This document shows positions 1 through 61,769 of a DNA stretch of 64,000 nucleotides, piece by piece. A program made the position numbers and the translations under genes. Under the pieces are notes generated by a model. That model worked only from the letters and a program-made list of their open reading frames with translations. It was not told the origin of the DNA and ran no database searches. This stretch comes from Candidatus Zixiibacteriota bacterium (GTDB taxonomy: Bacteria; Zixibacteria; MSB-5A5; GN15; FEB-12): assembly GCA_022571985.1 (NCBI GenBank), contig JACZWU010000001.1, forward strand, positions 405,501 to 469,500, read 5' to 3'. How positions within the stretch are numbered: the first letter of the stretch is position 1; the number at the start of each line of letters is the position of its first letter.

Positions 1-242
1 TTGTGTCCAAATTTACTACCAATTGCTGTGTCGGCAATCGTGGTGACTTAAACGGCGATGGAGATGACGCCAATATTCTCGACCTGACATTCGCAGTTGA
101 CAGAATTTTCCGAGGCGGGTCGGCGTCTCTCTGCCCGGAAGAAGGAGATGCTAACGGAGATAGCGACCCAACCAACATCCTGGACTTGACGTTTCTGGTA
201 GACAGAATATTCCGCGGCGGCCCGCCACCGGGATCATGCTGA
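1..242 (+). CDS. C-terminal fragment of an exported dockerin-like-module protein (partial)
   Basis: Only the last ~80 residues of a protein entering from the left edge are present. The frame is open to the edge, so the GTG at position 3 is probably not the start. What is visible is two copies of a ~33-residue dockerin-like unit. Each has an acidic calcium-type loop beginning DLNGDG or DANGDS, then ILDLTF, then VDRIFRGG. A Cys pair (CCVG) precedes the first unit, and the chain ends in PPPGSC. The same terminal module closes the proteins at 388, 49916 and 59616, and a looser version closes the one at 38256. The lost N-terminal part is likely an exported enzymatic or repeat domain, but it cannot be named. 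The module itself is certain from the sequence; its role in calcium binding, attachment or sorting is inferred from the dockerin family. Confidence 0.85.
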   Translation, partial: VSKFTTNCCVGNRGDLNGDGDDANILDLTFAVDRIFRGGSASLCPEEGDANGDSDPTNILDLTFLVDRIFRGGPPPGSC

Positions 243-387
243 CGGGTGCCCAATTGGGTTTATATGGTCCATTCTCAAAAGGATTTAAAAAGAAAAATCT
301 TGCATAATCTGTCGTAATATCTATCTTAATATGTCAATTTATAGGCTTTAAGTTCGCTCTAAACTTTCTTAGCAGAAAGGAAGATTT

Positions 388-2802
388 ATGCTTAAAGGTA
401 ATTCGTCCTATCGCGGATTTTTCAAAAAAATCAATCTAATCATTATCTTTGTCATTCTTCTTGTCTCTTCAGCAGTTCAAACAGCTTCTTCAAAAGAATC
501 AATCGTAAAAGATAATTTGTCAAACGTCCAGATAAACAGAAGTATTGCTTCACTGCCGCTGGCTTTTACTGCCAATCAGGGTCAATGGGACGATAAGGTT
601 CTGTTTCGGGCTAATGCCGGCGGAGCCACAATGTGGTTTGCATCCGACGGCGCCTACTACCAATTTATTAGAACAATTGAATCAGAAGATGGTGATCCCA
701 TTTCTATTGTAGATAAGCGTTTCGGCATGGTACCGGACGATATTTTAGATAGAAGGCCGAAAGCTGTTGAAACTATGATGATCAAAGCCACATTTGTGGG
801 AGCCAATCCAAATCCACAAATGACCGGCGTTGATATGATGGAGTACAAATGTAACTACTTCATCGGCAATGATCCGAACGAATGGCATACCGATGTTCCC
901 AACTACTCTGCCGTATTGTACGAAGAAATATATGACGGTATAAACTTGAAGTACTACGGCAACGGCAGGCAGATGGAGTATGATTTTATCGTCTCCCCCG
1001 GCGCTGACTATTCCCAAATAATGATACAGTATGAGGGGGCAGAATCAATCTCAATAAATGATAATGGTGATCTCGTAGTTGAAACTAAATGGGGTGAAGT
1101 AGTCGAACAACGCCCTCTGATTTATCAGTTAGAAAATGACTCCCGTATTGCAATTGCCGGTGAATACCGAATGATGAGTGACAATTCTTTCGGGTTTGAG
1201 CTCAGCAGCAGCTATAACCCGGTGTTGCCACTGGTAATTGACCCTCTGTTATCTTACAGCACTTATCTGGGAGGCGATGCATATGATTACGGAGTTGACA
1301 TTGCAGTGGACGGTTTTGGCAATGCCTATATCACCGGCCAGACTTATTCAACCGATTTCCCAACCGAAGGAGCATATCAAAGCACCCTTCAGGGTGGAGA
1401 TAGAGATGCCTTTGTGACCAAACTAAATTCTTCCGGCAACGCATTGGTATACAGTACTTATTTAGGAGGCAGTATTTATGAACATGGCAAGAGCATCGCA
1501 CTGGACAAGTTTGGCAATGTTTATATTGCCGGCATTACTTATTCCTCCGATTTCCCTGTCAAGAATGCTTATCAAAGATATAAAAGTGGTAATGAAGAGG
1601 GTTTCGTGACCAAACTCAATTCAGCCGGTAATGCTTTGGTTTACAGCACCTACCTGGGGGGTAGAAACGCTGATATGTGCTGGGATATAGCACTGGACTC
1701 TGCCGGAAATGCCTATATCACAGGCCATACTACTTCCAACGATTTTCCCACCAAAGGAGCGTATCAAGCCACCTATCAGGGTGGCACCGATGCCTTTGTA
1801 ACCAAACTAAATTCTACCGGCGACTCTTTGGTTTACAGCACATATCTGGGCGGAAGTGACTCAGAAATAGGCTTTGGCATCGCTGTGGACGGTTCCGGTA
1901 ATGCTTATGTTGCAGGCCGTACTTATTCCACCGATTTCCCAACCCAGGGAGAATATCAATCCAATCAGGGTGACCTGGATGCTTTCGTAACCAAACTAAA
2001 TGATTCCGGCAACGCCTTAGTATATAGTACTTATTTGGGGGGAACTGCAACTGAGGTGATCTTTAGCATCGCGCTGGACAGTTCTGGTAATGCTTATGTC
2101 ACTGGCCTTACTAATTCCACCGATTTCCCAACCGAAGGCGAATACCAAACCTATCAGGGTGACTATGATGCCTTTGTGACCAAACTAAATTCTTCCGGCA
2201 CTGCTTTGGATTACAGCACTTACCTGGGGGGAAATGATAGAGATGTTGGCCATGGTATCACACTCGACCGTTTTAATAACGCTTATATTACCGGCTATAC
2301 TCGTTCGGCAGATTTCCCTCTTGTGGAAGCTCTCCAAGCCTATCAGGCTAACGGCGATGCCTTTGTGAGCAAACTAAATCCAGCCGGCGCTGCTTTGGTT
2401 TACAGTACCTACTTAGGAGGTAGTAGTCATGACGAGGGCGTTGCCATCGCGCTCGACTTTTTCGACAATGCTTACATTACCGGCGAAACTCGGTCCGCTA
2501 ATTTTCCTGCCGAGGGAGAATTCCAAATTTATCAGGAAAGCGGGGATATTTTTGTGGTCAAACTAGCTCAAACCGCCGAATGCTGTTTAGGAATTCGTGG
2601 CAATTTAAATAGCGATGATAATGATGCCAATATTCTTGATTTGATTTTTCTGGTTGACTTTATATACCGTGGCAGTGGAAACCCCGGTGCTTGTCCCGAA
2701 GAAGCCGATGTTAACGGAGATGGTGACTCATCCAACGTCCTGGATTTGACTTTCCTGGTAGACAGAATATTCCGCGGTGGCCCGCCGCCAGGACCGTGCT
2801 AA
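388..2802 (+). CDS. Exported DUF7948/SBBP-repeat protein with C-terminal dockerin-like module
   Basis: An 804-residue exported protein. A hydrophobic signal or anchor segment lies at about residues 16-35. Residues ~55-290 match the DUF7948-type domain that usually precedes SBBP repeats (FTANQGQW near the start, a YDFIVSPGAD motif later). Then come seven SBBP beta-propeller-type repeats of ~62-65 residues, each opening with YSTYLGG and containing GNAYITG and DAFVTKLN signatures. Residues ~735-804 are a double dockerin-like module starting with a Cys pair and ending PPPGPC. A likely ribosome site (GAAAGGAAG) lies just before the ATG. SBBP proteins are typically surface or secreted, with no known enzymatic activity. 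The repeats are strongly alike at DNA level, suggesting recent internal duplication. A second protein of this architecture, at 19011, carries a different C-terminal signal. Confidence 0.9.
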   Translation: MLKGNSSYRGFFKKINLIIIFVILLVSSAVQTASSKESIVKDNLSNVQINRSIASLPLAFTANQGQWDDKVLFRANAGGATMWFASDGAYYQFIRTIESEDGDPISIVDKRFGMVPDDILDRRPKAVETMMIKATFVGANPNPQMTGVDMMEYKCNYFIGNDPNEWHTDVPNYSAVLYEEIYDGINLKYYGNGRQMEYDFIVSPGADYSQIMIQYEGAESISINDNGDLVVETKWGEVVEQRPLIYQLENDSRIAIAGEYRMMSDNSFGFELSSSYNPVLPLVIDPLLSYSTYLGGDAYDYGVDIAVDGFGNAYITGQTYSTDFPTEGAYQSTLQGGDRDAFVTKLNSSGNALVYSTYLGGSIYEHGKSIALDKFGNVYIAGITYSSDFPVKNAYQRYKSGNEEGFVTKLNSAGNALVYSTYLGGRNADMCWDIALDSAGNAYITGHTTSNDFPTKGAYQATYQGGTDAFVTKLNSTGDSLVYSTYLGGSDSEIGFGIAVDGSGNAYVAGRTYSTDFPTQGEYQSNQGDLDAFVTKLNDSGNALVYSTYLGGTATEVIFSIALDSSGNAYVTGLTNSTDFPTEGEYQTYQGDYDAFVTKLNSSGTALDYSTYLGGNDRDVGHGITLDRFNNAYITGYTRSADFPLVEALQAYQANGDAFVSKLNPAGAALVYSTYLGGSSHDEGVAIALDFFDNAYITGETRSANFPAEGEFQIYQESGDIFVVKLAQTAECCLGIRGNLNSDDNDANILDLIFLVDFIYRGSGNPGACPEEADVNGDGDSSNVLDLTFLVDRIFRGGPPPGPC

Positions 2803-2854
2803 CCACCATGGCTTCGTCACCCTGAGCGAACAAGGTCCCCTGTATTCAAGAAAA

Positions 2855-2884
2855 CGTAGGGCAGAACCCTTTAGTGGTTCTGCC
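2855..2884 (+). repeat. REP-like hairpin, left partner of the RAYT unit
   Basis: A 9-bp perfect inverted repeat (GGCAGAACC / GGTTCTGCC) with a 7-base loop, preceded by CGTAG. Its reverse complement matches the element at 3428-3457 at 29 of 30 positions. The pair brackets the tyrosine transposase gene. Weaker similarity continues outward (GGTCC and CAAGAA blocks). Confidence 0.85.
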
Positions 2885-2902
2885 ATAAATAACGGCTAAA
2901 AC

Positions 2903-3406
2903 CTACTCACCAAAATCTCCTTCAAAAATTGGAGCTTTACGAGTACCCCAATCGGATTCATACTGTCCTCTCTTCAAATATGCATGAATCGAAGAATGCT
3001 CCCATTCATACGGATTTATTACCAAGCCATGCTTTACCGGATTAAAATGGATATAATCCAAATGCCTGTTGAGGTCATTTTCGTCTCGAATGATGTGGTC
3101 CCAAAACCGGCTCTGCCAAACTTTACCTCGATACATATTTTGGCTATTCCTGAATTGGTAAGCGAAAGATAGCTTGATTCTCTTGATTATAGATGACAGG
3201 TCAGATTCCAGCGGGTCAATGATGATGTGAAAGTGATCTGGCATAATCACCCAGGCACTCAACTCAAAATATATGTCTTTTTTTACCTTTTCTACTGCTT
3301 CCCAAAAGATATCACTATTTTCCACGAGAATTCTATGTCGATCATGAGTGACAGAGGTTATAAAATAGATTTGCCCTGGCGAATAATGTCTAATGAGTTT
3401 CGACAT
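2903..3406 (-). CDS. REP-associated tyrosine transposase (RAYT, IS200/Y1 family)
   Basis: A 167-residue single-strand DNA transposase of the Y1_Tnp/RAYT family. These enzymes recognise and cut REP hairpins through a 5'-phosphotyrosine intermediate. The metal-binding HxH pair is in PDHFHIII (H58 and H60). The likely nucleophile is Y118 in LDYIHFNPVKHGL, and the RAYT-typical WQSRFWDHIIR block is at ~97-107. The length matches intact family members, and the ATG at 3406 opens the conserved N-terminus. The gene is flanked by two REP-like hairpins in opposite orientation, the arrangement expected for a RAYT and its substrates rather than a multicopy insertion sequence. No other copy is seen in the window. 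Confidence 0.93.
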   Translation of the reverse strand: MSKLIRHYSPGQIYFITSVTHDRHRILVENSDIFWEAVEKVKKDIYFELSAWVIMPDHFHIIIDPLESDLSSIIKRIKLSFAYQFRNSQNMYRGKVWQSRFWDHIIRDENDLNRHLDYIHFNPVKHGLVINPYEWEHSSIHAYLKRGQYESDWGTRKAPIFEGDFGE

Positions 3407-3427
3407 GATTTACTAATCTCAAATGAT

Positions 3428-3457
3428 GGCAGAACCGCTAAAGGGTTCTGCCCTACG
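3428..3457 (+). repeat. REP-like hairpin, right partner of the RAYT unit
   Basis: An inverted copy of the 2855-2884 element: GGCAGAACC, a 7-base loop, GGTTCTGCC, then CTACG. It differs from the reverse complement of the left copy at one loop position. It lies 21 bases upstream of the transposase start codon. Confidence 0.85.
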
Positions 3458-3492
3458 ATTCTTGGGAAGGACCACCCGCCACTTAGTAAGTT

Positions 3493-4152
3493 TCATTTCT
3501 TCCAATCTTTCTTCCAAACACCTGATTCCAAAAGAACTGGTAAAAAGGGTGACTTCTGTAGCATTGCCTGCCTGATATCTTTCCAGGCCGCAATCAGATC
3601 GCGTGCAGCTTGAGACACGGCTGGGCGCTTAATCGAGGCAATCAAACTTTCAGACTTCCCTATTGTCTTCCTGTCAATGGCATGAAAATTGTCTAACATC
3701 GCGTACACTATGGTCAGAAGTTCATCATCTCCTAAATTTACTAATGTATCGTCGCCTAGAAAAGCAAGCTCCAATGCCCTTTGTCGTTCCAAGGCACGCA
3801 ATGTTTTGAAGTTTGACAGTGCCAAATCTCCAGCATCACATCTAGCAAGAACTACGATTAACACACACATCTCAAAATCGTCTGACGATTCCCCATAACG
3901 AATCAATTCCTGCTTATAGCATCGAACTCGTTCCTCTGCAACAGAATCAATCGCTTCACTAGCAAACATTGCTACTGGATAATCCTCGGTCCCGGCCCGG
4001 GAACATGTGCACACCAATGTAACGATGATCAACACACAGATTAGTCGCTTGCTGTTATAAATACTACTCGGGTTACCGCTGTGCGGCCCTCCTCTTATCG
4101 CAGATACAACTATTTCCACCTCCAGATTCCACGTCGCTTTAGCGCAACCCAC
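3493..4152 (-). CDS. Hypothetical exported or anchored protein
   Basis: Unrecognised protein of up to 219 residues. The open frame begins at a GTG, but the first ~34 residues look unlike a normal N-terminus. A hydrophobic export-type segment (LICVLIIVTLVC, residues ~37-48) with basic residues just before it suggests a shorter protein starting nearby. No ATG, GTG or TTG fits well there, so the start is unresolved. A purine-rich AGAGGAGG run sits in the extended N-terminal part. After the hydrophobic segment the protein is mostly helical, with many Leu, Ala and acidic residues and no cysteine-based or catalytic motif that I recognise. It is monocistronic, between the RAYT unit and a repeat-rich intergenic stretch, so it may be accessory. 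Coding is likely from length and composition; function unknown. Confidence 0.55.
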   Translation of the reverse strand: MGCAKATWNLEVEIVVSAIRGGPHSGNPSSIYNSKRLICVLIIVTLVCTCSRAGTEDYPVAMFASEAIDSVAEERVRCYKQELIRYGESSDDFEMCVLIVVLARCDAGDLALSNFKTLRALERQRALELAFLGDDTLVNLGDDELLTIVYAMLDNFHAIDRKTIGKSESLIASIKRPAVSQAARDLIAAWKDIRQAMLQKSPFLPVLLESGVWKKDWKK

Positions 4153-4436
4153 GTCGCCACTCTCTTAATTGAATGTATGTTCCGAGCGCCCAGCCCATGA
4201 ACAATACAAAAAACTACAAAACCTCTACTGATGCAATGAAAAAAGGCGAAACGAACCCATTTCCCCGTAACCCAATAACCCTCAATGAGGCCGACACGCT
4301 TTTCGCTCTATCTGGCGCATGCGAACCCATATGATTTTACAAAAAACAGTAATGTCGCATTCTGGCACCGCCTCTACTTGGCTATGATAGAGATACTACA
4401 TAAAGCCTAAAAAAGCGAGGGGCGTCCCAAAAAAAA
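4153..4436. other. Intergenic stretch, no firm gene
   Basis: Apart from a possible 45-codon plus-strand frame at 4197-4334, described under rejected items, I see no gene. The stretch ends at tRNA-Gly. It contains the word ACGAACCCA, which recurs near 21700 in another gene-poor stretch. Confidence 0.5.
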
Positions 4437-4508
4437 GCGGGAGACGAGGTTCGAACTCGCGACCAACAGCTTGGAAGGCTGTGACTCTACCAACTGAGTT
4501 ACTCCCGC
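4437..4508 (-). tRNA. tRNA-Gly (anticodon UCC)
   Basis: A 72-base cloverleaf on the minus strand with a 7-bp acceptor stem (GCGGGAG with CTCCCGC), the D-arm AGTTGGTAGAGT, and anticodon loop CTTCCAA giving anticodon UCC (plus-strand 4473-4475). The T-arm carries the GTTCGAA core. No CCA is encoded. Six T residues follow immediately on the transcribed strand and may end transcription. Confidence 0.96.
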
Positions 4509-4534
4509 ATAACATCTGTCTAAATCTCTTAAGT

Positions 4535-4594
4535 GGGGCAGACGAGACGTCTGCCACCCACAAAATAGTCATCCTGAGCCTGTCGAAGGGTGAC
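4535..4594. repeat. Two dispersed palindromic repeats (GGCAGACG type and CTTCGACAGGCTCAGGA type)
   Basis: At 4535-4555 is a palindromic element with arms GGCAGACG and CGTCTGCC. At 4568-4594 is an element whose reverse strand reads CCCTTCGACAGGCTCAGGA. Both families recur near 10.0-10.8, 21.8, 22.6, 52.9 and 53.8 kb; the second also recurs inside rlmN. Confidence 0.8.
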
Positions 4595-4658
4595 ACTCAC
4601 AGTAAAAACTACCTTTTTCAACAGTCATATCGTCTGGCCGAACAACTAATTTCTAAAT

Positions 4659-4684
4659 GATCCCACCGCAAGCGGTGGGCGACC
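4659..4684. repeat. 26-base palindromic repeat, identical copy at 10742
   Basis: The 26 bases here are identical to 10742-10767. The core is CCCACCGC AA GCGGTGGG, an 8-bp stem with a 2-base loop. Each copy lies downstream of, and close to, the 3' end of a minus-strand gene. Confidence 0.85.
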
Positions 4685-4745
4685 GAAAGCCACCAACCAA
4701 ACAACACTCAATTTAGAGCTTTTTGGCACAAACTGCAATTTGAAT

Positions 4746-5606
4746 TTAATTCGAGTCTCCCGAAGGCAAAAGCCCCCAGTGCAGCTTTGAGCGGCAGACA
4801 CGATAAAATGAATTTTCCTCAAAGGCAATAAACTGGTAAGCAAAATCTGCCCGCTTAATAGAAACAATATCACCGTCCGAAAGTTCTCTCATCACCTGGC
4901 CGTCTACTGTCAAAGAGGCGACTTTATGCTGTGACCTTACTTTTAAAACCAGAGCGTCGTCGGCCCGGAAAATCATCGGCCGCGTTGTCAGAGAAAATGC
5001 TGAAATAGGCGAAGCGATAATCGCCTGCATAGTCGGATGCAAAATCGGTCCTCCAGACGCCAGCGAATAAGCTGTCGAGCCGGTAGGAGTGGCGATAATC
5101 AGGCCGTCACAGCGGTAGTTAACGATATCTTCGCCGTTGACCTGCAGCCGGATATCTATCATACGGCTGATAGCCCCGTTATCCACGACCGCTTCATTGA
5201 GAGCATGAAACGTCTCGCCCGTTCTATCTATTTTAACTGTCAGGGCCATGCGCTCTTCTACGTTGTAATCTCCTTTGATAATTCGGTCTAAGCAGAGAAT
5301 CATTGATAGCGGCGTAATTTGTGTCAGAAACCCCAGCGAGCCGACATTGACACCCAGCAGTTTGGTTTTTCTGTCCCCCACAATGCGGGCAGAATGAATC
5401 AGAGTGCCGTCACCGCCCATTGAAACCAGCACATCACACTTATCCGGGAGTTCTTCAAATGTACAGTAAGATTGACCAACCGCGATTTCTTTAAGACCGT
5501 CCCATACGAAAATCTCTGATTTGGACTGCTTAGACCAGTCAAGAAAATCAGCGACAGCCTGCTTAGTGCCTTCCCGCTGTAAGTTGGCTACCAGCCCGAA
5601 CCGCAT
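4746..5606 (-). CDS. nadK: NAD kinase
   Basis: Cytosolic ATP-NAD kinase of 286 residues, making NADP from NAD. The sequence shows GGDGT (64-68), GVNVGSLGF (85-93), the NE pair at 137-138, CDGLI with the conserved Asp at 167, and the TPTGSTAYSL glycine-rich loop at 173-182, followed by GGP. These are the standard landmarks of the family, and the length is normal. It is last in the operon xseA-xseB-ispA-dxs-nadK, 9 bases after dxs. The link may be functional, because the MEP pathway begun by dxs consumes NADPH. Start: ATG at 5606. Confidence 0.96.
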   Translation of the reverse strand: MRFGLVANLQREGTKQAVADFLDWSKQSKSEIFVWDGLKEIAVGQSYCTFEELPDKCDVLVSMGGDGTLIHSARIVGDRKTKLLGVNVGSLGFLTQITPLSMILCLDRIIKGDYNVEERMALTVKIDRTGETFHALNEAVVDNGAISRMIDIRLQVNGEDIVNYRCDGLIIATPTGSTAYSLASGGPILHPTMQAIIASPISAFSLTTRPMIFRADDALVLKVRSQHKVASLTVDGQVMRELSDGDIVSIKRADFAYQFIAFEENSFYRVCRSKLHWGLLPSGDSN

Positions 5607-19010: not shown

Positions 19011-21467
19011 ATGAAAAAATATAGTATCATAAAATTCTTGTGTTCTCCGATTTGTCTAAGTTGTGTCTTCTTTGTACTATGGTCAAATTCGAGTGCTTCA
19101 GCTACTGGAAGAAATACTCCCGTTTTCATTGAAAACATAGGCCAGTGGCCGGATAGTGTTTTATTCGTCTGCAATACAGGATCACAGGCTCTTTGGTTTA
19201 CATATAATGGCGTACATCATAGGTTGGCAAGAATAGATACTTCTGCTACCCGAACAAGCAGCCTGAGATCGAAACTTGGTGCCAAACACCCAGTATTGGG
19301 CAAATTTGGTGCAACTCTGCCACAGCTTGAATTTATGACTGTTTCTGCCAAATTTGAAGGCACTAACCCCAACGTCAAAGTATTAGGGGCGTCCAAACAG
19401 AAACAATATTATAATTTTTATAAAGGCAGGGACCGCTCAAAATGGAAGTCACATGTCCCCTGTTTTGAGTCAATAATCTATGAAGATATCTACCCAGGCA
19501 TAAATCTGTCGTACTACAGCAATGGGAATAAGATAGAATACGATTTTATGGTCTCTCCCACTGCCGACCCTTCTCAAATAAGAATCGCATACCAGGGAGC
19601 AAAATCTGTCCAAATCAGCAAAAAGGGGAAACTGATAGTCGGCGCCGATTGGGGAGAAATTATAGAAAGTAAACCCAAAGTCTATCAGATGAAAGGTGGC
19701 CGACGAAAAGTAATTGATGCTTCTTTCAACATGCTATCGGAAAACATGATCGGATTCAAGGTATCAAAAGAGTATGACAAAAGCAAAAAACTGATAATAG
19801 ATCCAGTGCTTAGCTATAGCACATACTTTGGTACAGTTTCGGGGCAAATTGCACTTAGCATTGACCTGGACAGCCAGGGGAATATGCTCATAAGTGGGTT
19901 AACAGGGCCGTCTTTTCCAACATTCAAAGCGTTTGACAGCGTTGGCTCAGGTGGTCAAGATGCGTTTATTAGCAAGATTTCTGCGTCCGGACACGAACTA
20001 ATTTTTAGTACGTATCTGGGTGGAGATGAATGGGAGCTCTTTAGTAACGCAAAAACAGACACCTTCGATAACATTTATGTTGCAGGAATAACATTGTCTC
20101 CAAACTTTCCTGCCTTAATTGGCTACGACACTACTTTTGATGGAATTAAGGAAACCGGTTTCCTGTGCAAGTTCACGCCAGGATGCGATTCTATGATATA
20201 CTCAACATTTGTAGGAGGTTCAGATTTTGATTTCCTGGTGGGATTGGATGTGGATAATGACGGCTTTGCATATGTGACAGGACTGACTACTTCAACCGAT
20301 CTTGTTTTTGAGTATTCATACATAAGAGAATATATGAATAGAGGAGACGGATTTTTGGTAAAAGTTTCGCCCGATGGGCAGAGCCCTGTATTTGGTACAT
20401 ATTTGGGGGGGTATGATAATAGTGATTTCCCCTTCGGAATTGCAGTGGATGACTCTGGAAACGCTTTTGTCACTGGATATACTACTTCTAATGACTTCCC
20501 AAGCACTGACCCTTCGGATACGATTATGTGGAATGCTGGCTATGATGCTTTCGTGCAGCAAATTTCTACTAATGATAGTAGCCTTGTATATTCTGTTCGT
20601 TTTGGCAGTACCGGCGACGATGAAGGACTGGATATTAAACTCGATAAGTCAGGCGACGCATATGTCACCGGTAGGGCTTTCGGCAGGGGTTTCCCCCTAA
20701 TGAATGCCTATGATTCAACTCCCAATGGAGGTGGAGACTTGTTTGTGAGTAAATTCCAGAAAAGCACAGGCAATCTGCTTTTTTCAACTTATATGGGAAG
20801 TAGAAGTTGGGATGACAGCTATTGTATTGGTGTTGACAATGAGCATAGGGTCTGGATTGCAGGTGATACATGGGAAGACAATTTCCCTACTGTTGATGCT
20901 TTTGACAATACGTTTAACGGGAGGATTGATGCCTTTGTGGCTTGTCTTTCGGCGTCTGGCTCAGAATTACTTTATAGTACTTATTTGGGTGGAAACGAAT
21001 GGGATGGTTTCTTTGGCATGGTAATTGATGCTTCAAATAATGTGTATTTGGCAGGTAGAACCCAATCTCTAAATTACCCTACAATTGATCCATATCAGGC
21101 AGAACTTGGAGGTCATTGGGACGTTGTAATTGCAAAATTTAGTCCGGTGGCAACTTCGATTGATGATTCTGCTGGTTCAACATTGCCTGCGAAATTTGTG
21201 ATTAGTAACAATTATCCTAATCCGTTTAATCCATCTACTACTATCTCGTATTCCTTGCCTGAGAGATCTCATACACAAATTGTTGTCTATAATATATTAG
21301 GTGAAGAAGTTATAAAGCTCGTTGATCAAGTAAAATCAGCTGGTAGTTATACAGTGACATGGAACGGTATGGATAGAAATGGCAAGGTTTCTGCAACAGG
21401 AGTCTACTTTTATCAACTAGTAACTGAAAACTACCGAGAATCTAAGAAAATGCTTTTGCTCAAATAG
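19011..21467 (+). CDS. Exported DUF7948/SBBP-repeat protein with T9SS-type C-terminal domain
   Basis: An 818-residue paralogue in architecture of the 388 protein. Signal segment at residues ~8-30. The DUF7948-type domain covers ~35-260 (FIENIGQWPDSV, later YDFMVSPTADPSQIRI). There are seven SBBP-type repeats, each opening with a YSTYLGG-like motif, some diverged (YSTFVGG, YSVRFGS, FSTYMGS). Residues ~735-818 are a FlgD/T9SS type A sorting domain: NNYPNPFNPSTTISYSLP, VYNILGEEV, then GVYFYQL and a basic end KKMLLLK. This tail normally directs type IX secretion and is removed at the surface. The 388 protein has a dockerin-like module instead. Protein is likely surface-attached or released; repeat function unknown. 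Confidence 0.92.
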   Translation: MKKYSIIKFLCSPICLSCVFFVLWSNSSASATGRNTPVFIENIGQWPDSVLFVCNTGSQALWFTYNGVHHRLARIDTSATRTSSLRSKLGAKHPVLGKFGATLPQLEFMTVSAKFEGTNPNVKVLGASKQKQYYNFYKGRDRSKWKSHVPCFESIIYEDIYPGINLSYYSNGNKIEYDFMVSPTADPSQIRIAYQGAKSVQISKKGKLIVGADWGEIIESKPKVYQMKGGRRKVIDASFNMLSENMIGFKVSKEYDKSKKLIIDPVLSYSTYFGTVSGQIALSIDLDSQGNMLISGLTGPSFPTFKAFDSVGSGGQDAFISKISASGHELIFSTYLGGDEWELFSNAKTDTFDNIYVAGITLSPNFPALIGYDTTFDGIKETGFLCKFTPGCDSMIYSTFVGGSDFDFLVGLDVDNDGFAYVTGLTTSTDLVFEYSYIREYMNRGDGFLVKVSPDGQSPVFGTYLGGYDNSDFPFGIAVDDSGNAFVTGYTTSNDFPSTDPSDTIMWNAGYDAFVQQISTNDSSLVYSVRFGSTGDDEGLDIKLDKSGDAYVTGRAFGRGFPLMNAYDSTPNGGGDLFVSKFQKSTGNLLFSTYMGSRSWDDSYCIGVDNEHRVWIAGDTWEDNFPTVDAFDNTFNGRIDAFVACLSASGSELLYSTYLGGNEWDGFFGMVIDASNNVYLAGRTQSLNYPTIDPYQAELGGHWDVVIAKFSPVATSIDDSAGSTLPAKFVISNNYPNPFNPSTTISYSLPERSHTQIVVYNILGEEVIKLVDQVKSAGSYTVTWNGMDRNGKVSATGVYFYQLVTENYRESKKMLLLK

Positions 21468-38255: not shown

Positions 38256-40634
38256 ATGTATTTCAGAGCCGTATTAAAGATCCTTTTGTTCATTTTACTT
38301 TTTTTCTCTGTTTCTATCGCCAATCCAAATTATAAATCCGCGACAGTTTTCCTGACCAAATACTTAAAATCGGATGTAGTGCAAATCGGTGTAAAGAATC
38401 CGCGGATTTCTGAGTCAGCCAGAAGTTTCCTCCTGGATAGAGACGGTGAAAAACTGAAAATCTGGCTCTTTTTTACAGACAAAGGCTTATTTGACTCCAA
38501 AGATTTTGAGAGAGCTGCCAGCTCAACAATTTTGAGCGAAAAACAGTTAAAGAGACGTAAGAAAACCGGGCTTGAAGAAATTGTCTTTGCCGATTTGCCG
38601 GTTTTTAGGAATTATATAGAACAAGTCGAGAGACTTGGTGCCAAGCATAGACGAAGTTCCAGATGGCTAAACGCCGCCAGTTTTGAAGTTTCTGTCGAGA
38701 CACTCAATCAAATTATGCAGCTGCCGTTTGTATCTTCAATTAAGCCGGTTGCAATTTATAAAAGAACACCCGTCACAGTTGAGGAAATAAAACCCAACAA
38801 ATATTTCCTTCAAACCCAAAGTGCGGATGCAATTAACTATGGCAACTCAGCCTTTCAATTAGAGCAGATAAACGTGATAGCTGTACATCAAAGAGGCTAT
38901 CACGGCGAAGGTGTGACGCTTGCAATACTTGACACAGGTTTTAGAAAGTCCCACGAAGCGTTTGCGGCTCATTTTGCTGATGGCCGCGTGCTGGCCGAGT
39001 ATGATTTTGTCTTTAGAGATAGTAATACAGCTAACGAGGCAATAGACACGACGCATCAGTGGGACCACGGCACTTACATCTGGTCTGCTGCCGGCGGGCT
39101 ATTGAATGGAGTTATATACGGTCCTGCTTTTAAGGCAAATTTTCTTTTGGCAAAAACTGAAGATATCAGGTTTGAGAATCAGGTCGAAGAAGACAACTGG
39201 GTAGCCGCTGCCGAGTGGGCTGACTCGCTCGGCGCCGATGTTTTAACTTCTTCTTTAGGATATATTAAGTGGTACGATTATTCGGATTTAAACGGTGAGA
39301 CCGCTGTTACCACAGTAGCTGCAAATATTGCTACTTCTATGGGTATTGTGGTCTGTAACGCGATGGGGAATATGGGACCTGGAGACTCAACACTGATAGC
39401 GCCTGCCGATGCTCACGACATCCTATCAGTGGGAGCAGTAAACGGCGCCGGTCTAATTGAAAGTTTTTCCTCAAGAGGACCGACTTTTGACGGACGAATC
39501 AAGCCCGAGGTTTGTGCCAGAGGCAGGAGTGTCTGGTCAAGCTCGGCAGATTCTGACAGCAGCTACGCCAGTGTCAGCGGAACATCCCTTTCGACGCCGC
39601 TGATAGCAGGCGCAGCTTGTCTATTGGTTCAGGCCAGGCCGGATATGCCACCTGAAATTATCAGGCAAGCTCTGCTGGAAACTGCAGATAACGCTGATTC
39701 AATCAACAACACTTACGGCTGGGGTGTAATTGATCTCCTTGAAGCTTTTACCTGGGGAGCAGAATTTTCTGTTGATACCTCGGTAGGAAACGCTCCTCTG
39801 ACAGTTCAGTTTACGTCAAACTCTTCCCTGCCGGTATTTAAGTACAAGTGGGATTTTGGTGATGGCGGCAGTTCAGCATTGGAAAACCCAAGCTATGAAT
39901 ATAAAGACCCCGGAACTTATGACGTAACCTTGACTACTTTGACAAACTACGGAAACATCGACAATCAACAATTGGGACTAATTACACTGTATGGTGACAC
40001 CATGACAATTGGAACCGACTCGGCTTTTGCCGGCGAGAAGTTAGAAATCAGCGTTGAACTGATCAACACCCAGTCGCTTACTTCTCTGACAATACCATTT
40101 AAGTATGGCAGTTCTTCTGATTTCAAATTTGATTCAGTCAGCCTTGGCAGCCGTACTAATTACTTCGAAAAAATTAGTTCCATCGGAACAGATATAAACA
40201 AAAACCGCTATGGTTTCAGATTGACAGCTGACGATGGCGGAGGTTCGCCGCCTCTCGCTCCGGGAAATGGTGAAATTCTCAAAATTCACCTTTCAATAGA
40301 CAGCCTCTCTCTTGGAGGAATTGGCGCAACTATCGATACTACTTCTTTCTTGAGCAACAAACTGCAGCTATATACAGCTTCGACCAACTATACTCCAATA
40401 GTATTTGCCGGCTCGATGAGTTCTAAAGTTATTATCAGAGGGGATGCCAATTACGACAACAGGATATCCGTTTTGGATCTGACTTTTATAATTAACTACA
40501 TTTATCGAGGGGGACCCAACTCAGTAACCGTGCAGTCCTGGGATGTCAATTTTGATTATAAATTAGACTTCAAAGATATTACTTATCTGGTAGATTTCAT
40601 GTTCAGAGGCGGCCCCGCTCCGCCGACACCATAG
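38256..40634 (+). CDS. Secreted subtilisin-family (S8) protease with PKD, cohesin-like and dockerin-like domains
   Basis: A 792-residue exported protease. Signal peptide ~5-22, then an N-terminal propeptide-like region. The S8 domain has all catalytic residues: Asp226 (LAILDTGF), His271 (WDHGTY), Ser444 (SGTSLSTPLIAG), with an oxyanion Asn around 368-372. A PKD domain follows at ~510-580 (FKYKWDFGDGGSSALENP, DPGTYDVTL). Residues ~590-710 have the look of a cohesin-like beta-sandwich (FAGEKLEISVELIN..., ending GEILKIHLSID). The end is a double dockerin-like unit (GDANYDNRISVLDLTF...YRGG; DVNFDYKLDFKDITYLVDFMFRGG) without the terminal Cys seen in its relatives. Its 3' end overlaps the convergent ogt gene by 32 bases. 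Confidence 0.93.
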   Translation: MYFRAVLKILLFILLFFSVSIANPNYKSATVFLTKYLKSDVVQIGVKNPRISESARSFLLDRDGEKLKIWLFFTDKGLFDSKDFERAASSTILSEKQLKRRKKTGLEEIVFADLPVFRNYIEQVERLGAKHRRSSRWLNAASFEVSVETLNQIMQLPFVSSIKPVAIYKRTPVTVEEIKPNKYFLQTQSADAINYGNSAFQLEQINVIAVHQRGYHGEGVTLAILDTGFRKSHEAFAAHFADGRVLAEYDFVFRDSNTANEAIDTTHQWDHGTYIWSAAGGLLNGVIYGPAFKANFLLAKTEDIRFENQVEEDNWVAAAEWADSLGADVLTSSLGYIKWYDYSDLNGETAVTTVAANIATSMGIVVCNAMGNMGPGDSTLIAPADAHDILSVGAVNGAGLIESFSSRGPTFDGRIKPEVCARGRSVWSSSADSDSSYASVSGTSLSTPLIAGAACLLVQARPDMPPEIIRQALLETADNADSINNTYGWGVIDLLEAFTWGAEFSVDTSVGNAPLTVQFTSNSSLPVFKYKWDFGDGGSSALENPSYEYKDPGTYDVTLTTLTNYGNIDNQQLGLITLYGDTMTIGTDSAFAGEKLEISVELINTQSLTSLTIPFKYGSSSDFKFDSVSLGSRTNYFEKISSIGTDINKNRYGFRLTADDGGGSPPLAPGNGEILKIHLSIDSLSLGGIGATIDTTSFLSNKLQLYTASTNYTPIVFAGSMSSKVIIRGDANYDNRISVLDLTFIINYIYRGGPNSVTVQSWDVNFDYKLDFKDITYLVDFMFRGGPAPPTP

Positions 40635-49915: not shown

Positions 49916-50638
49916 ATGGGCAAATCACACAATCTCAGGCGCTCTTTCTACCTTCTGGCAGCTATTATAATCATACTCCAACTGGCCGGCAATGCCAATG
50001 GACACGTGTACTTGTCTGACCCCAAAGGTGGAGAAACCCTCGAAGTTGGTACCGTTTATACAATCCGATGGACAAATGCGATTCCACACATTTTACAAAA
50101 CTGGGATTTATGGTATTCTACTACTGGTGCTGGAGGTCCCTGGATAGTAATTGCCATGGATATACCTGGAGGCGATAACACCGTTAGTAGTATTCATACG
50201 TATAATTGGACAGTCCCTGATGACCCATCTAGTCAAATTCGAGTCCGTGTGAGACAAGATAATAGTGTATATGATTACGAGGATACTAGTAATGCAGATT
50301 TAACGATTGTGCGAATTGATTCAGATGGTGACGGCGTGGTGGATCCGCTTGACAACTGCCCGAACAGCCCGAATCCGACTCAAACAGATACTGATGGCGA
50401 TGGCATAGGTGACGCTTGCTGCTGTGTCGGCAGCAGGGGTGATCTGAATGGTGATGGAAACAACGCCAATATTCTCGACTTAACCAACATTATAGATATC
50501 ATATTTCGAGGCGGTAGTGATCCCGGCTGCCCAAATGAAGCCGATTTAAATAGTGACGGAACTTCTGGCAATATTCTCGATTTAACTTACCTGGTAGACC
50601 GAATCTTTCGCGGCGGACCACCACCCGGCCCGTGCTAA
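49916..50638 (+). CDS. Secreted protein with Kre9/KNH-type Ig domain, TSP3-like calcium repeat and dockerin-like module
   Basis: A 240-residue exported protein. Signal peptide ~10-30 (FYLLAAIIIILQLAGNANG). Residues ~33-125 are an Ig-like domain of the 'YTIRWT...WDLWYST...YNWTVPDD' type known from KNH/Kre9-like domains. Next a thrombospondin type 3-like calcium stretch (DSDGDGVVDPLDNCPN...DTDGDGIGDAC). Residues ~168-240 are the double dockerin-like module, starting with a Cys pair (CCVG) and ending PPPGPC. A complete minimal example: signal, one Ig domain, TSP3, module. Starts ~100 bases after tRNA-Arg. Confidence 0.92.
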   Translation: MGKSHNLRRSFYLLAAIIIILQLAGNANGHVYLSDPKGGETLEVGTVYTIRWTNAIPHILQNWDLWYSTTGAGGPWIVIAMDIPGGDNTVSSIHTYNWTVPDDPSSQIRVRVRQDNSVYDYEDTSNADLTIVRIDSDGDGVVDPLDNCPNSPNPTQTDTDGDGIGDACCCVGSRGDLNGDGNNANILDLTNIIDIIFRGGSDPGCPNEADLNSDGTSGNILDLTYLVDRIFRGGPPPGPC

Positions 50639-56837: not shown

Positions 56838-56840
56838 AGA

Positions 56841-56870: not shown

Positions 56871-56894
56871 ATTTAAGTGACTGCTTGATGTCGA

Positions 56895-58874
56895 TTAGTT
56901 ATTCGATGCTGCTTCTATCGTAATTGCTTCAGGTATCGGCAGTGGCTTTAACTTGCCCTGCTTGGCTGGTGCGGAATACTGCATTTGATCCAGAGCAGCT
57001 TTTTTCTCAGGGTGTGCATCAAGATGCTTGTTTTGCCGGACGTAGTCGATTCCCAATTCTTTCGGCATGCCGTAAACTTCGGGATGTGAATATAGACCAA
57101 TATCTTCTTCATCTTTTGGCACTTCTGTTAAAATTGGATTAGCAAGCGCGTAAGCATCTTTGCGGACGCCTGTCAGCTGCCAGCTTACTTCCATCCCCGG
57201 CTTTCCACCGGCAATTGAAAAAACATTATTTCTTACTTTTGATTCAATATAAACCGGAGCATAGCCGCCAATACAGGTAAGCTGATAACGGAAATTTTCG
57301 TTAAGCGCATCGAACCAGTCGGGAAGTGTTACTGTAGCAGATCCATTGGCGTTGAGAACTACCACGCCGTCATAAACGTTTTTCATTTCATCCGATTCGA
57401 CGAACGAATGCTGCAAGTATTTGTTCTCCGGGTCAAGCGGGTGGTCGATTCGGAAAGCACCGGCAGATTTAGTTAATGTACCCTGAATGTGACAATTGCC
57501 AATTGAGTAGACTCCATAGTTAATTCCCGCACCTGAGGCAGACCCTACAACACCGAATTTAGAGCCGGACTCTCCTGTAGCAAAGCCGATGACGCCGAAA
57601 CGAGAGCCTCCTCCGGTTCCTGACACATTTCCAGTAACACCATAATAGGAATAGCTTGAATCTGAAGAGACCCTGCCCCATACACCTCTAAAACCACCTT
57701 TAAATTCTCCACCGATCCCATACCATTCCTTCGGGACAGAGTAGCCGAGTACACCGGTCGCATCGTTAGTGCCTGTTCCATCGTAATGCCCATAAACAGC
57801 AGCTGCATTGATATTTAGCTTGTCGGTCGTAAACTCACCGCCGTAAAGACTGTCCGACTCGACATACAGCCCTTTGCCTCCGGTATAGTAGCCGGAAAAG
57901 CCGCTGCCCGCTTCGGACCTGATTGCGGTAGAGTTGTTTCCGGCGGTGTGAGCTATAATTGCATTACCTCCATCTAGTTGGTGACCGGCAAAAATACCCG
58001 TTGCCGTTCCTGCGGAAAATGTTTGAAAAGCAGTTCCACTACTATAAACAGTAGTTGCAGCGAGGGCGCTCGGTCTTAACCAAACGCCGGAGGTTTGACC
58101 CTTGTAAAACAAACCTCCTAAGCCACTGGTAGCCGATGTATCAGTGTTCACTCCGAAGATTGCAATATCAAGCGGACCTGTACCATTATTATGTGCTTCG
58201 AACGTTGTATTTGACAGCAACCCAGAGGTGCCACCGACTATCACTCTATCATTGACATCTACTGTTCTGACTAGTGAGCCGACATCCTCCCAGCCGTGAT
58301 TATGGCTTGATGGCGCAAAACCGGTTGAATTTACGCCGTCCAAAAGGCCGGCATTGTCCGCATAGGCGGCAGAATCTGCCAAAATGGCGAATTCAGCAAC
58401 TAAGGACAAGACCGAAAACCCCGAGGTGTCAGCATACCCGGCTGAGTCTGCATATCCTGCACTATCTGAATAACTTGCCTTATCTGCTGTAAGAGCGTGG
58501 AAAGCAAAGCTGGTAGTGGTAAATCGAATCCGGGGCAAAATCTCCGGGTCGGTATCTACTTGAATGCCCAGACTCAGTAATGTATCAGTTGCCCATTCAG
58601 CTGTCGGCAAGGGTGGCTGTGGTGGTTCACCCAGAGCGACGGAAAACGATCCGGCGGTAAAAGTGATAGTGATGAAGCCGGAATTCCAGATGTCAGTACC
58701 GGTATTGTCATAAATCGTAAATTTTACCGACTTGGTGCCCGAGTAGGGTGCACCAACGCTGCTCTTTAGGACACCCTGATAAGTTATTAACCGGGGAACG
58801 TCGGCCGAGGCCGTTGCTGCCAGAAAAATAAGAATACCAACAAAAATGACGGCAATTTGTGATTTTAAACGCAT
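56895..58874 (-). CDS. Exported tail-fibre-like surface protein
   Basis: A 659-residue exported protein; signal peptide to ~24 (LAATASADVP). An N-terminal beta domain (ITYQGVLKSSVGAPYSGTKSVKFTIYD, in parts, then GSFSVALGE) is followed by a short repeat ADSAGYADSAGYADTSG (~140-156), then repeated Gly-rich turns (GVLGYS, GVTGNVSG, GVIGFATGES, GVVGSASG, GVYSIG), each GVxG-like unit similar to phage tail-fibre or collar repeats. The C-terminus is a compact domain (FRIDHPLDPENKYLQHSFVES, then CIGGYAPVYIESK) resembling an end domain of such proteins. AGGAGG precedes the ATG at 58874. Role as surface appendage is inferred from pattern. Confidence 0.88.
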   Translation of the reverse strand: MRLKSQIAVIFVGILIFLAATASADVPRLITYQGVLKSSVGAPYSGTKSVKFTIYDNTGTDIWNSGFITITFTAGSFSVALGEPPQPPLPTAEWATDTLLSLGIQVDTDPEILPRIRFTTTSFAFHALTADKASYSDSAGYADSAGYADTSGFSVLSLVAEFAILADSAAYADNAGLLDGVNSTGFAPSSHNHGWEDVGSLVRTVDVNDRVIVGGTSGLLSNTTFEAHNNGTGPLDIAIFGVNTDTSATSGLGGLFYKGQTSGVWLRPSALAATTVYSSGTAFQTFSAGTATGIFAGHQLDGGNAIIAHTAGNNSTAIRSEAGSGFSGYYTGGKGLYVESDSLYGGEFTTDKLNINAAAVYGHYDGTGTNDATGVLGYSVPKEWYGIGGEFKGGFRGVWGRVSSDSSYSYYGVTGNVSGTGGGSRFGVIGFATGESGSKFGVVGSASGAGINYGVYSIGNCHIQGTLTKSAGAFRIDHPLDPENKYLQHSFVESDEMKNVYDGVVVLNANGSATVTLPDWFDALNENFRYQLTCIGGYAPVYIESKVRNNVFSIAGGKPGMEVSWQLTGVRKDAYALANPILTEVPKDEEDIGLYSHPEVYGMPKELGIDYVRQNKHLDAHPEKKAALDQMQYSAPAKQGKLKPLPIPEAITIEAASNN

Positions 58875-59102
58875 GGCAGTACCTCCTGCTGTGAAAGTCG
58901 GAATTTGATTCTGCCGACTTTCGGCTAAGTGATATTATTGATTTCTTTTTTCGGTAACGGGAATACCGACAGTTAGCTGCCCATATACCCATATCATCCT
59001 ACATCCGTTGATATAAGATAAATATAATTAGATTCGTCCAGAGGTCAATGATAATGTTGTACTTACAGATAGCTGTACAGGGAAACTTAACTAACAAATA
59101 GG

Positions 59103-59390
59103 TTAGCTGAGAGCCAGACTAAACGGTAGCAACTCGGCAGTAAAGATTTTGGCTTTAACAGCCGGATCGTCATTCATAATTTGTTGAGCTTCCTGTTCGG
59201 CCTCAGTTTCCAGTAGAGCAATTCCAAAACGGGCATCTTCGATTCTACCGGCAAATAGTACAACCTTTTCTGCGTGAAGTTGCTTTAGATATTCGAAGTG
59301 TTTCATAACTTCTGCGGACTCTTCAGGCGTTGCATTTTCAGCAAATCCGTCCCTGGGCGGGCAGTACATAATCAGGTAATGTCTGGACAT
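59103..59390 (-). CDS. YciI-family protein
   Basis: A 95-residue ferredoxin-like YciI-family protein: MSRHYLIMYCPPRDGF, the loop EYLKQLHAEKVVLFAGRIED, then FGIALLETEAEQEAQQIMNDDPAVKAKIF in pieces. The family is widespread with few known activities (one member has a dehalogenase-type role). No neighbour on the same strand. Confidence 0.9.
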   Translation of the reverse strand: MSRHYLIMYCPPRDGFAENATPEESAEVMKHFEYLKQLHAEKVVLFAGRIEDARFGIALLETEAEQEAQQIMNDDPAVKAKIFTAELLPFSLALS

Positions 59391-59615
59391 ATTCTGCCTC
59401 GTCTTGTTTTTGTCTAAGTAACAGGGTCTTAAGAAAGCATATCAATTGGTACGCCAAATATTTCGAAAAGTCTACCGATATGATTCGCAGGGCAGATTTT
59501 GCGTTAAACACTATTCATCGTATTAGCGTTATAAAATTGATTGGCGAATTTTCAAATATTCGCTTTATTAAAGGATAATTTAAGTTTCAAATAATTGATA
59601 CTCAAAAAGGCCGCT

Positions 59616-61769
59616 ATGAAAATTTCGATAAAACTGAACTCTTTTCTATTCTGCATCTTGATAATATTGGTGTTCTCAGTAATTTCAAATTCATCTTTAT
59701 TACCTCTTTCTGAAAAAAATAGCGCTTTTAATTCTGAAAACAGAAGTAGTTTGAACCTTCCTCACAGCGACAGCCTCATCGAGATATATGCCGAATGGAT
59801 AGGCACACCTCAATGGATGAGTGGCGTTGATAACGGCAGGGAAGCATTCGGGGGCTCTATTGCCAAGGGGTCTGACTTTTTTGGCAGTAATTTAGGAGCT
59901 GCTGACTACTTTCCGGTTGAAATTATATTTGATATAGATAGTAACAATTGGTCAAATGCACAGTTTTTCAGAAGAGATAAATTATACAAGTCTGTCGGTG
60001 TGGGTACTTTTCCCGGATCGGTCTGGGATGTAAGCGAGCCTGAAAATCCGCGCCGAATTAATGTCTGTATTGCCGAATTTTATGACGGTAGTGACACTCT
60101 GCCACCGGCAAATTTTAAATGGGACCCCGACAACAGCGCTCAGGGGAAATACGAATATCTTTTTATCATGGGCAGCGATTATGACAGCACCGGCCTAACC
60201 TATGCCGACAGTAATGTCCTGCTAAATGACATGGATAATCTTTATGCCTGGTGGCCAAGACTTGCCGACGGTCATACTTTTTTTGAAACCGATACCGCCA
60301 AATTAATAATCGGCACTTACATTGGCCTGCTGGCTACTCCTTTTGAAGACCTGGTTTATCTCAACTGGGTTTACCCGGGTCAAAATCCTGACAATTTCAA
60401 AATCTTCTGGGGTACAGATTCAATACCAGACCAGTTGCTGACAGAACTGGCGGGGGATATGCGGGACTTTGCTCATACTAATTTGCTGACAGAAATAGAT
60501 TATTACTATCAAGTCAGGTCGTATGACTCTCTTGATAACGAAGTGCTGGCAAGCCGCGTTAAACGTGCCCGAACCAGATATAATACACTGGATCTTTCCC
60601 TTTTTGGACAATGGAACGAACGTTCCGGCTACGGCGACATCTGGGGCTATACTGACAGCACCAATGGTAAAGAATATGCCTTAATATGTGCCAGAAGTGA
60701 AGGGCTGTACATTATTGACATAAACGACACGCCCTTTGTCGAAGTTAGCTTTGTCGAAGGCTGCGGCGACACCAAAGATGTCAAAACATATAGTCATTAT
60801 GCAGTAATTTTTCAAGAGAACTGCCCTACCATGATCGTGGACATTGCCGATGTTACCAACCCCCAAGTTGTTTCAACAATGTCCAGTGGTTGTCACAATG
60901 GACTGATTGACGGGCATTATGTTTATCAGATGGGCGGAAATCCCTCAGGGCTTGTAATATTTTCTATTTTAGACCCGGCCAATCCTGATTCTGTTAACAA
61001 TTATAGCATCTACAGCTACCATGACGCCGCTATCAGAAATGACACCCTGGCCGCCTGCATCATAAACGGCGGTGGTGTAGATATTTTGGATTTGACAGAC
61101 AAGAGCAATATACAATTGATCGGCCAGTTCAATTACACGAGTTCGGGAGCGCATAATGCGGCCTTCAGCGAAGATGGTAACTTTCTATTTATAGGTGATG
61201 AAATCGGCGGAGGAAGACACACCAGAGTCTTTGATATTTCCAACTTAAACAGTATTAACAAAGTGGCAGATATAATAGTCAACCCCAATACTGTTACTCA
61301 TAACAGTTATGTAAAAGACGGGCATCTCTTTATCGCGCACTATGTAGACGGCTTACGGGTCTGGAATGTAGAAGACCCGGCTGACCCCTACGAAACTGCC
61401 TTTTACGATACTCACTCGCAAACTCCGCTCGGGCCCTATGAAGGTGCCTGGGGTGTCTACCCCTATTTTGCATCGGGGAAAGTAATTGTCTCTGATATGC
61501 AAAACGGGCTTTTTGTATTCAATACTTCCGTACCGGGTGAAAGCTGCTGTATTGGCAACCGGGGCGACATAAACGGCGATGGTAATTCTATCATAACTGT
61601 ATTAGACATGACTTATCTGATTGACTTTATTTTCAGGGGCGGTCCGAAACCCTCCTGCGATGCAGCCAGCGATGTCAACGCTGACAATGATTTGGCCGAT
61701 GTCGTTGATTTGACATTCATAATTGACAGGATATTCAGGGGAGGCCAGTTGCCCAGCTCCTGTCCTTAA
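59616..61769 (+). CDS. Secreted LVIVD-repeat (choice-of-anchor B) protein with dockerin-like module
   Basis: A ~717-residue exported protein from the ATG at 59616 (AAAAGG nine bases upstream; the frame also extends to a TTG at 59595). Signal anchor ~5-23. Residues ~50-285 form an N-terminal module (GTPQWMSGVDNGREAFGGSI, WDVSEPENPRRINVC) shared with the next gene. A propeller of LVIVD-type repeats follows (GLYIIDINDTPFVEVSFVEG, MIVDIADVTNPQVVS, VDILDLTDKSNIQLIG, LRVWNVEDPADPYETAFYD), of the choice-of-anchor B type. The end is a double dockerin-like module (CCIGNRGDINGDG..., ending PSSCP). In this copy the first acidic loop is one residue longer. Confidence 0.93.
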   Translation: MKISIKLNSFLFCILIILVFSVISNSSLLPLSEKNSAFNSENRSSLNLPHSDSLIEIYAEWIGTPQWMSGVDNGREAFGGSIAKGSDFFGSNLGAADYFPVEIIFDIDSNNWSNAQFFRRDKLYKSVGVGTFPGSVWDVSEPENPRRINVCIAEFYDGSDTLPPANFKWDPDNSAQGKYEYLFIMGSDYDSTGLTYADSNVLLNDMDNLYAWWPRLADGHTFFETDTAKLIIGTYIGLLATPFEDLVYLNWVYPGQNPDNFKIFWGTDSIPDQLLTELAGDMRDFAHTNLLTEIDYYYQVRSYDSLDNEVLASRVKRARTRYNTLDLSLFGQWNERSGYGDIWGYTDSTNGKEYALICARSEGLYIIDINDTPFVEVSFVEGCGDTKDVKTYSHYAVIFQENCPTMIVDIADVTNPQVVSTMSSGCHNGLIDGHYVYQMGGNPSGLVIFSILDPANPDSVNNYSIYSYHDAAIRNDTLAACIINGGGVDILDLTDKSNIQLIGQFNYTSSGAHNAAFSEDGNFLFIGDEIGGGRHTRVFDISNLNSINKVADIIVNPNTVTHNSYVKDGHLFIAHYVDGLRVWNVEDPADPYETAFYDTHSQTPLGPYEGAWGVYPYFASGKVIVSDMQNGLFVFNTSVPGESCCIGNRGDINGDGNSIITVLDMTYLIDFIFRGGPKPSCDAASDVNADNDLADVVDLTFIIDRIFRGGQLPSSCP

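Follow-up and report, generated by a model that had tools for sequence, protein, structure and literature searches.

The stretch analysed here (the window) is 64,000 nucleotides of a Candidatus Zixiibacteriota genome (G000, 2.93 Mb in 17 contigs, the window being C1:405501-469500), and the subject is a duplicated module, a dockerin according to its modelled fold, that closes several otherwise diverse proteins. Five proteins of the window hold it, all on the forward strand. The first begins upstream of the window, in a frame of 796 residues that includes a DUF7948 match at G000:C1:403526-404209, and its module lies at 24-239. The second (388-2802) joins a DUF7948 domain (229 bits with Pfam) to an SBBP beta-propeller (221 bits) and ends in a module at about 2581-2799, which scores 142.5 bits with a profile built from four window copies. 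A protein of 240 residues (49916-50638) carries TSP3 repeats (TSP_3, 28.3 bits) before its module at 50417-50635 (142.3 bits), and a choice-of-anchor B / LVIVD protein (59595-61769; TIGR04312, 165 bits; domain at about 60621-61520) has its own at 61542-61763. These four copies, in the proteins ending at 242, 2802, 50638 and 61769, align over 73 positions with 53-71% identity to the first. In all of them the CC and RG motifs are invariant, as are the LDL Asp and the RGG-end Arg of each unit. A looser copy (40431-40625) closes an S8 protease (38256-40634), in which the Pfam scan also detected PKD and cohesin domains; this copy scores 61.5 bits with the four-copy profile and 29.8 bits with Pfam Dockerin_1 (PF00404, cut-off 22.9). 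A preliminary description of the window had counted four or five such proteins with unrelated bodies. The five are confirmed, to which a sixth should be added, since the protein crossing the window edge (61825-64000) has its module just outside (G000:C1:469587-469808); the bodies are not all unrelated, as the proteins ending at 242 and 2802 both contain DUF7948.

The four-copy profile gave 104 matches in the genome at E ≤ 0.01 (best 1.2e-41, the best ones being the seed copies), well in excess of what chance would give. Stretches around these matches were taken, the profile was rebuilt once, and module frames were called at E ≤ 1e-4. The double unit was found in this way in 97 open frames, and in 94 of them it ends 12 residues or less from the stop. 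The three non-terminal copies are at C9:444683 (220 residues from the end), C9:381053 (188) and C5:218795 (101). Inspected by eye, the C-termini finish in or just past unit 2, usually with P-x-C, and no hydrophobic helix followed by a basic end, of the LPXTG or PEP-CTERM type, was found by eye at the listed module C-termini. By a crude signal-peptide rule, 72 of the 97 module frames score as positive, as against 56 of 135 neighbouring control frames; several of the negatives have signal-like N-termini by eye, and five are open at the 5' end in the fetched stretch. Most of the about one hundred dockerin-ended proteins are thus apparently exported. The earlier proposal of a fixed last module on varied exported cargo, resembling a sorting or attachment signal, is supported: frequent internal copies or cargo that is not exported would have refuted it, and neither applies to this genome, with 94 of 97 copies terminal and 72 of 97 frames signal-positive.

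Two classes of module could be distinguished. Class A (58 frames, including four of the five window proteins and the one crossing its edge) has a CC-x-G-x-RG start, a Cys between the units and a terminal Cys; the four Cys columns are occupied in 58, 58, 58 and 57 of the 58 frames. Class B (39 frames, including the S8 protease) has no CC at that place. Loop length, measured from the first loop Asp to the Asp of LDL, is 13 residues in 51/58 (unit 1) and 54/58 (unit 2) of the class A frames and 12 residues in 0/58 and 1/58, so that the 12-residue calcium loops characteristic of canonical type I dockerins are not a feature of this class. In class B, aligned for 29 strong frames of the 39, loops of 12 residues occur in 14/29 (unit 1) and 9/29 (unit 2), the rest being mostly of 13. 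The cysteine pattern and the predominance of 13-residue loops had both been noticed in the window, and they hold for class A throughout the genome. The two units of class A are very alike (77% identity over 14 residues), with a helix Asp, Asp+6 and Arg+10 invariant in both units of 58/58 frames. In clostridial dockerins, alike units permit binding in two orientations, and by analogy those of class A would allow two orientations as well. The recognition-helix residues themselves presumably differ from the clostridial motifs. The loops would be expected to bind calcium, and the two Cys pairs probably form a covalent clasp that holds the two ends of the module together. If these disulfides do form, the four-Cys dockerin would be a sturdy coupling part.

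The identity of class A comes from its fold. An AlphaFold2 (AF2) model on the 58-row class A alignment has two helices, with a pLDDT of 95.6 and a pTM of 0.81. A Foldseek comparison with the PDB lists 34 rows for this model. The first 30 all belong to dockerin or cohesin-dockerin entries; the best has an E of 2.3e-3 and a probability of 1.00, and there is no match at E 0.001 or below. VIA-align superposes the model on type I dockerins with a Z of 9.9 and a root-mean-square deviation of 1.9 over 65-67 residues. Pfam support is mainly for class B: at E ≤ 1e-3, a Pfam dockerin is recognized in 6/58 class A and 11/39 class B proteins, the class A copies of the window score 15.1, 17.0 or not at all with Dockerin_1, and the class A profile has 0 matches at E ≤ 0.01 among solved sequences. 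According to the model, the module is a dockerin made of two tandem loop-helix units, and the term "dockerin-like" initially given to it, taken as something other than a dockerin, can be dropped. Class A is a divergent dockerin, mostly missed by annotation, which undercounts it since Pfam finds only these 6 of 58 proteins; it is not filed here as a canonical type I dockerin.

No cohesin partner had been seen in the window, and a search for a co-occurring cohesin family had been suggested. One cohesin lies in fact inside the S8 protease, at 39996-40358, immediately 5' of its dockerin. Its Pfam score is under the cut-off (E 9.4e-4, 19.8 bits, cut-off 24.1), and it reaches 99 bits with a family cohesin profile that includes that very sequence. 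In the genome as a whole, the 8 matches of Pfam Cohesin at E ≤ 0.1 score low, several of them falling under the cut-off; 6 of these 8 frames also carry the C-terminal sorting tail of the type IX secretion system (T9SS). With TIGR04183, the profile of this tail (PF18962 in Pfam), there are 32 matches at E ≤ 0.01, 28 of them over the cut-off; the 29 T9SS frames retained here include C5:14050, which is under the curated cut-off, and exclude three weaker matches. The family cohesin profile, made of 26 domains (14 from this genome, 12 from relatives), finds 21 matches in 20 frames, 14 of these sequences being contained in the profile. Among the 20 frames, 12 are T9SS-tailed, 5 are dockerin-tailed (one being the S8 protease of the window) and 3 have neither tail. 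A separately iterated profile, whose set differs by one T9SS frame, detects cohesins in 12/29 T9SS frames versus 5/94 dockerin-terminal frames (p 1e-5), and in 0/191 other frames of 250 residues or more. The simplest candidate receptor, C5:121118-122116 (333 residues), consists of one cohesin and a T9SS tail, both over the Pfam cut-offs, behind an N-terminus that is signal-like by eye. In a cluster at C11:7-16 kb, three T9SS-tailed cohesin frames stand beside one class B dockerin frame. The gene of the SprA translocon, the T9SS component that was searched for, is present (538 bits, cut-off 200).

The dockerin module does not match the T9SS tail profile TIGR04183, and the 97 module frames and 29 T9SS frames overlap in a single one, C9:444683, where module and tail occupy separate stretches. 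Both endings can nevertheless stand on the same cargo. The body of the window protein 59595-61769 belongs to the NCBIfam family TIGR04312, "choice-of-anchor B", a name which we take to mean one body type with exchangeable C-terminal anchors. This family was set aside as a test of exchange: in relatives, its 30 loci include 27 closed frames, of which 26 have a profile-detected dockerin and one a dockerin-like end by eye, with a T9SS tail in 0/27, so that no swap is seen in that family. DUF7948 was taken instead. This genome has five DUF7948 proteins: a dockerin closes three of them, of which two lie in the window, and a T9SS tail closes the other two. One of the latter, at 19011-21467 on the forward strand of the window, is a paralogue in which a T9SS tail (about 21213-21455) replaces the dockerin; it scores 45.8 bits with TIGR04183 and 219.8 bits with DUF7948, and its body is 38% identical to that of 388-2802 over 691 residues. 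The other, C9:171687, is 62% identical to the 388-2802 body over 722 residues, up to a junction after which one protein continues with the CC dockerin and the other with the T9SS tail.

In the phylum, 40 listed DUF7948 places were taken, with 36 closed frames: 19 end in a dockerin, 9 in a T9SS tail, and 8 are unassigned by profile (one of them with an IPTL-like ending, which we take to be a membrane tail). A tree was built from 38 rows, leaving out L274 and L293 (the longest frame being seemingly not cargo) and L290 and L292 (cut off). With five profile-unassigned rows taken as dockerin by eye and the IPTL-like row L271 excluded, at least 9 tail changes are counted among these 38 rows. This number resembles that obtained with shuffled labels (mean 10.5; 57 of 300 shuffles at 9 or fewer), and 16 of the 36 forks are weak; the sister sets formed by the genome's own C9 protein with window protein 388-2802, and by L285 with L288, are starred. 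The swap means that the dockerin occupies the place where a known surface-sorting signal can stand, in agreement with the attachment role first suspected. The 62%-identical pair can thus be regarded as a ready-made experiment on what the C-terminal tail alone decides. In L271 itself (G114, family f16), the frame of the DUF7948 stretch ends in an IPTL-like sequence, a hydrophobic stretch and basic residues, which from its sequence would be a third kind of tail on DUF7948 cargo.

Among 132 genomes of the phylum, the class A profile is found in 117 (E ≤ 1e-6), Pfam dockerins in 127 and Pfam cohesins in 118 (E ≤ 1e-3), and the T9SS tail in all 132 (E ≤ 1e-4). The five genomes without Pfam dockerins (families f6 and f17) are all also without Pfam cohesins. 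When the 30 best cohesin loci were surveyed, one per genome, 18 gave closed frames with a cohesin, from 18 relatives, and all 18 end in a T9SS tail; the other 12 comprise nine open-ended frames without a tail call, one open frame with a partial T9SS tail, and two loci where the longest frame is another gene. One relative's frame (L202) has three cohesins. A true absence of the module from families f15 and f16 had also been considered, as there is little class A profile signal there, and was rejected because Pfam dockerins are present and five DUF7948 proteins of these families end in divergent dockerin-like units recognized by eye, outside the profile assignment. Such divergent ends, for example DANGDCLVIGSDVTRLVNYFRG, were noted in L262, L264 and L265 (G111, f15), L267 (G117, f16) and L272 (G114, f16). 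A scan of genome contigs with narrow patterns returned 31 loci, all in Ca. Zixiibacteriota records.

These data are best explained, in our opinion and with reasonable though far from complete confidence, by a cohesin-dockerin display system in which T9SS-anchored cohesins are the receptors and the dockerin is an indirect C-terminal tag for surface attachment. The T9SS would export about a dozen cohesin proteins and fix them on the outer surface. Dockerin-tagged cargo would leave the cytoplasm by Sec, and its tag would plug into the cohesins of the T9SS-tailed receptors. A single set of T9SS-displayed receptors could in this way serve about a hundred exchangeable cargo proteins. Dockerin and T9SS tail share the same terminal slot on exported proteins and are interchangeable on DUF7948 cargo, but their sequences differ, and so would their modes of action: the T9SS tail is itself read for sorting, and the dockerin would work indirectly, by way of a receptor that the T9SS displays. 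For this phylum, seen here only as genomes, the cell surface can provisionally be pictured as a small set of T9SS-displayed receptors, with dockerins making the remaining surface proteome pluggable.

Several observations weigh against this display system. It needs a further step to bring dockerin-tailed cargo across the outer membrane, for which either another secretion system or periplasmic docking followed by joint export could be envisaged. Binding between these cohesins and these dockerins is a prediction, and the attempt to model a natural chain containing both, a cohesin followed by a class A dockerin (G000:C1:296462-297322), was too poor to use (pLDDT 73.6, pTM 0.51): the cohesin-only rows of its input alignment were misaligned in the C-terminal half, and the best Foldseek rows were mostly cohesins with poor superposition. 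The class A copies of the window are below the Pfam dockerin cut-off or unmatched, and five dockerin-tailed frames hold their own cohesin, which makes within-chain binding possible. In the phylum, Pfam cohesins are absent at E ≤ 1e-3 from 9 of the 127 genomes having Pfam dockerins, the dockerin-less genomes span two families and thus represent two events at most (one of the five being 52% complete), and G122 of family f17 has one dockerin and two cohesins. A trade-off between dockerins and T9SS tails, with densities taken from first-look candidates since scored matches have an upper limit per genome, was discarded as main evidence: over the 132 genomes, T9SS tails correlate with the module at a rho of -0.20 and with Pfam dockerins at 0.06, and the value of -0.67 over 19 family medians is driven by f6, f15, f16 and f17.

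A bolder variant makes the dockerin tail an export pass as well, the cargo docking in the periplasm on a T9SS-tailed cohesin protein and crossing the outer membrane with it. This looks unlikely to us at present. If it were true, about a hundred proteins that the T9SS does not itself recognize would leave through it, and the class A cysteine staple would hold the plug in its fold on the way.

Another possibility, towards which the preliminary description leaned, is that the dockerin is a sorting signal in its own right, recognized by a dedicated secretion or sortase-like machine, and that cohesins play no part. The terminal position of nearly all copies, the exchange with a true sorting signal on DUF7948 cargo, and the nine genomes with Pfam dockerins and no detected Pfam cohesin would all fit such a signal, to which we nevertheless assign a low probability: the module is a folded dockerin with two near-identical units, cohesins are encoded in this genome and in 118 of 132 in the phylum, and in C9:444683 the copy is internal, with a T9SS tail after it. 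It is rather improbable, too, that cohesin and dockerin act within one chain or among copies of one cargo, for self-assembly or stability. Chains with a cohesin followed by the dockerin do occur in five dockerin-tailed frames, and several T9SS-tailed frames have a cohesin followed by a divergent dockerin-like unit by eye, yet in 89 of the 94 dockerin-terminal frames no cohesin was detected, and cohesins are concentrated on T9SS-tailed proteins.

A third alternative is a cellulosome-like degradative complex, in which the tag would collect hydrolases on scaffolds for polymer digestion. Some of the cargo proteins are peptidases (S8, M14, M6, Reprolysin-like) or an amidase, and complexes of this kind have been proposed in Cloacimonadota (PMC8542988) and Planctomycetes (PMC6461901). 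However, the 25 commonest Pfam families of each class (out of totals of 38 and 49) are led by propellers, FG-GAP, TSP3 and LVIVD repeats and include no glycoside hydrolase, and cohesin matches never exceed two per frame in this genome, which leaves little likelihood for this alternative. Taken narrowly, the initial statement that the module does not belong to a cellulosome holds; no tandem-cohesin scaffold was found in this genome. Finally, that the cohesin-like domains are mere structural beta-sandwiches of T9SS proteins, the dockerin tags binding some other partner, is very improbable despite the low Pfam scores and the loose correlation of dockerin and cohesin counts over genomes (rho about 0.3): among solved sequences, the 26-domain profile finds 36 at E ≤ 0.1, with a best E of 8.6e-13, and almost all of these are named as cohesins or scaffoldins.

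Cohesin-dockerin assemblies outside cellulosomes have already been published (PMC8542988, PMC6461901), and the display system should be compared with them. Ca. Stygibacter (Cloacimonadota) is proposed to have a cellulosome-like complex in which enzymes with signal peptides, one of them an S8 peptidase, bear C-terminal dockerins, together with one scaffold of 3,755 residues with tandem cohesins, carbohydrate-binding modules and a C-terminal domain for cell-surface attachment, for which the paper cites a T9SS review; four dockerin enzymes and a halomucin-like protein are listed, and the complex is read as serving polymer digestion (PMC8542988). Both systems share C-terminal dockerins, one of them on an S8 peptidase, and a cohesin protein with a surface-attachment end. 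They differ in that there are here 94 dockerin-terminal frames, mostly non-enzymes among the 25 commonest families per class; cohesins occur singly or in pairs on many small T9SS-tailed proteins, one dockerin class has four Cys, and the dockerin is exchanged with the T9SS tail. The planctosome of Nemodlikiaceae (Planctomycetes) is described as a system of few components that uses cohesin-dockerin modules without cellulose degradation: a protein for anchoring, an adaptor that carries both modules, and peptidases that dock (PMC6461901); its proposed anchor is a lamin-tail-domain protein, in contrast to the T9SS tail seen here. The clostridial type I cellulosome is alike in dockerin fold, cohesin homology and repeated alike units, and different in lacking the 13-residue loops and four Cys of class A and the T9SS anchoring, and in having the tandem-cohesin scaffold. 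In open PMC text, searched mostly under the spelling Zixibacteria (which misses Zixibacteriota), nothing was found on such a system at the scale of a whole phylum, on dockerins with four Cys, on small cohesin proteins with a T9SS tail or on the exchange of tails.

Some individual proteins deserve mention. The product of C9:444683-447007 (L104:1684-4008) unites Laminin_G, TSP3, a cohesin, the internal class B dockerin and the T9SS tail, and its composition makes it a possible surface adaptor. The chain G000:C1:296462-297322 (L120:2463-3323; 287 residues), with a signal-like start, one cohesin and a class A dockerin, is a possible minimal adaptor on the same kind of evidence. C9:381053 has a cohesin, a signal-like stretch ending in Cys and an internal dockerin, without a T9SS tail. 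C1:672038 (L302, G000:C1:671909, 196 residues) and C3:133170 (L125, G000:C3:133002-133772, 257 residues) have a cohesin and signal-like starts without a recognized tail, and their products are perhaps periplasmic or released cohesins. In the window, residues 112-231 of the TSP3 protein 49916-50638 (TSP3 and dockerin) match the C-terminal part of NF045500 (Omp28-related selenoprotein) with 54 bits, for a cut-off of 200; that model may include an ending similar to TSP3 plus dockerin. Lastly, four T9SS-tailed cohesin frames (L086, L124, L121 and L108) show by eye a dockerin-like pair after the cohesin, DRGDINLN... then ...ATDVNADG...LSVADLV. This pair is internal, being followed by another segment and then the T9SS tail, and it is perhaps a third dockerin class.

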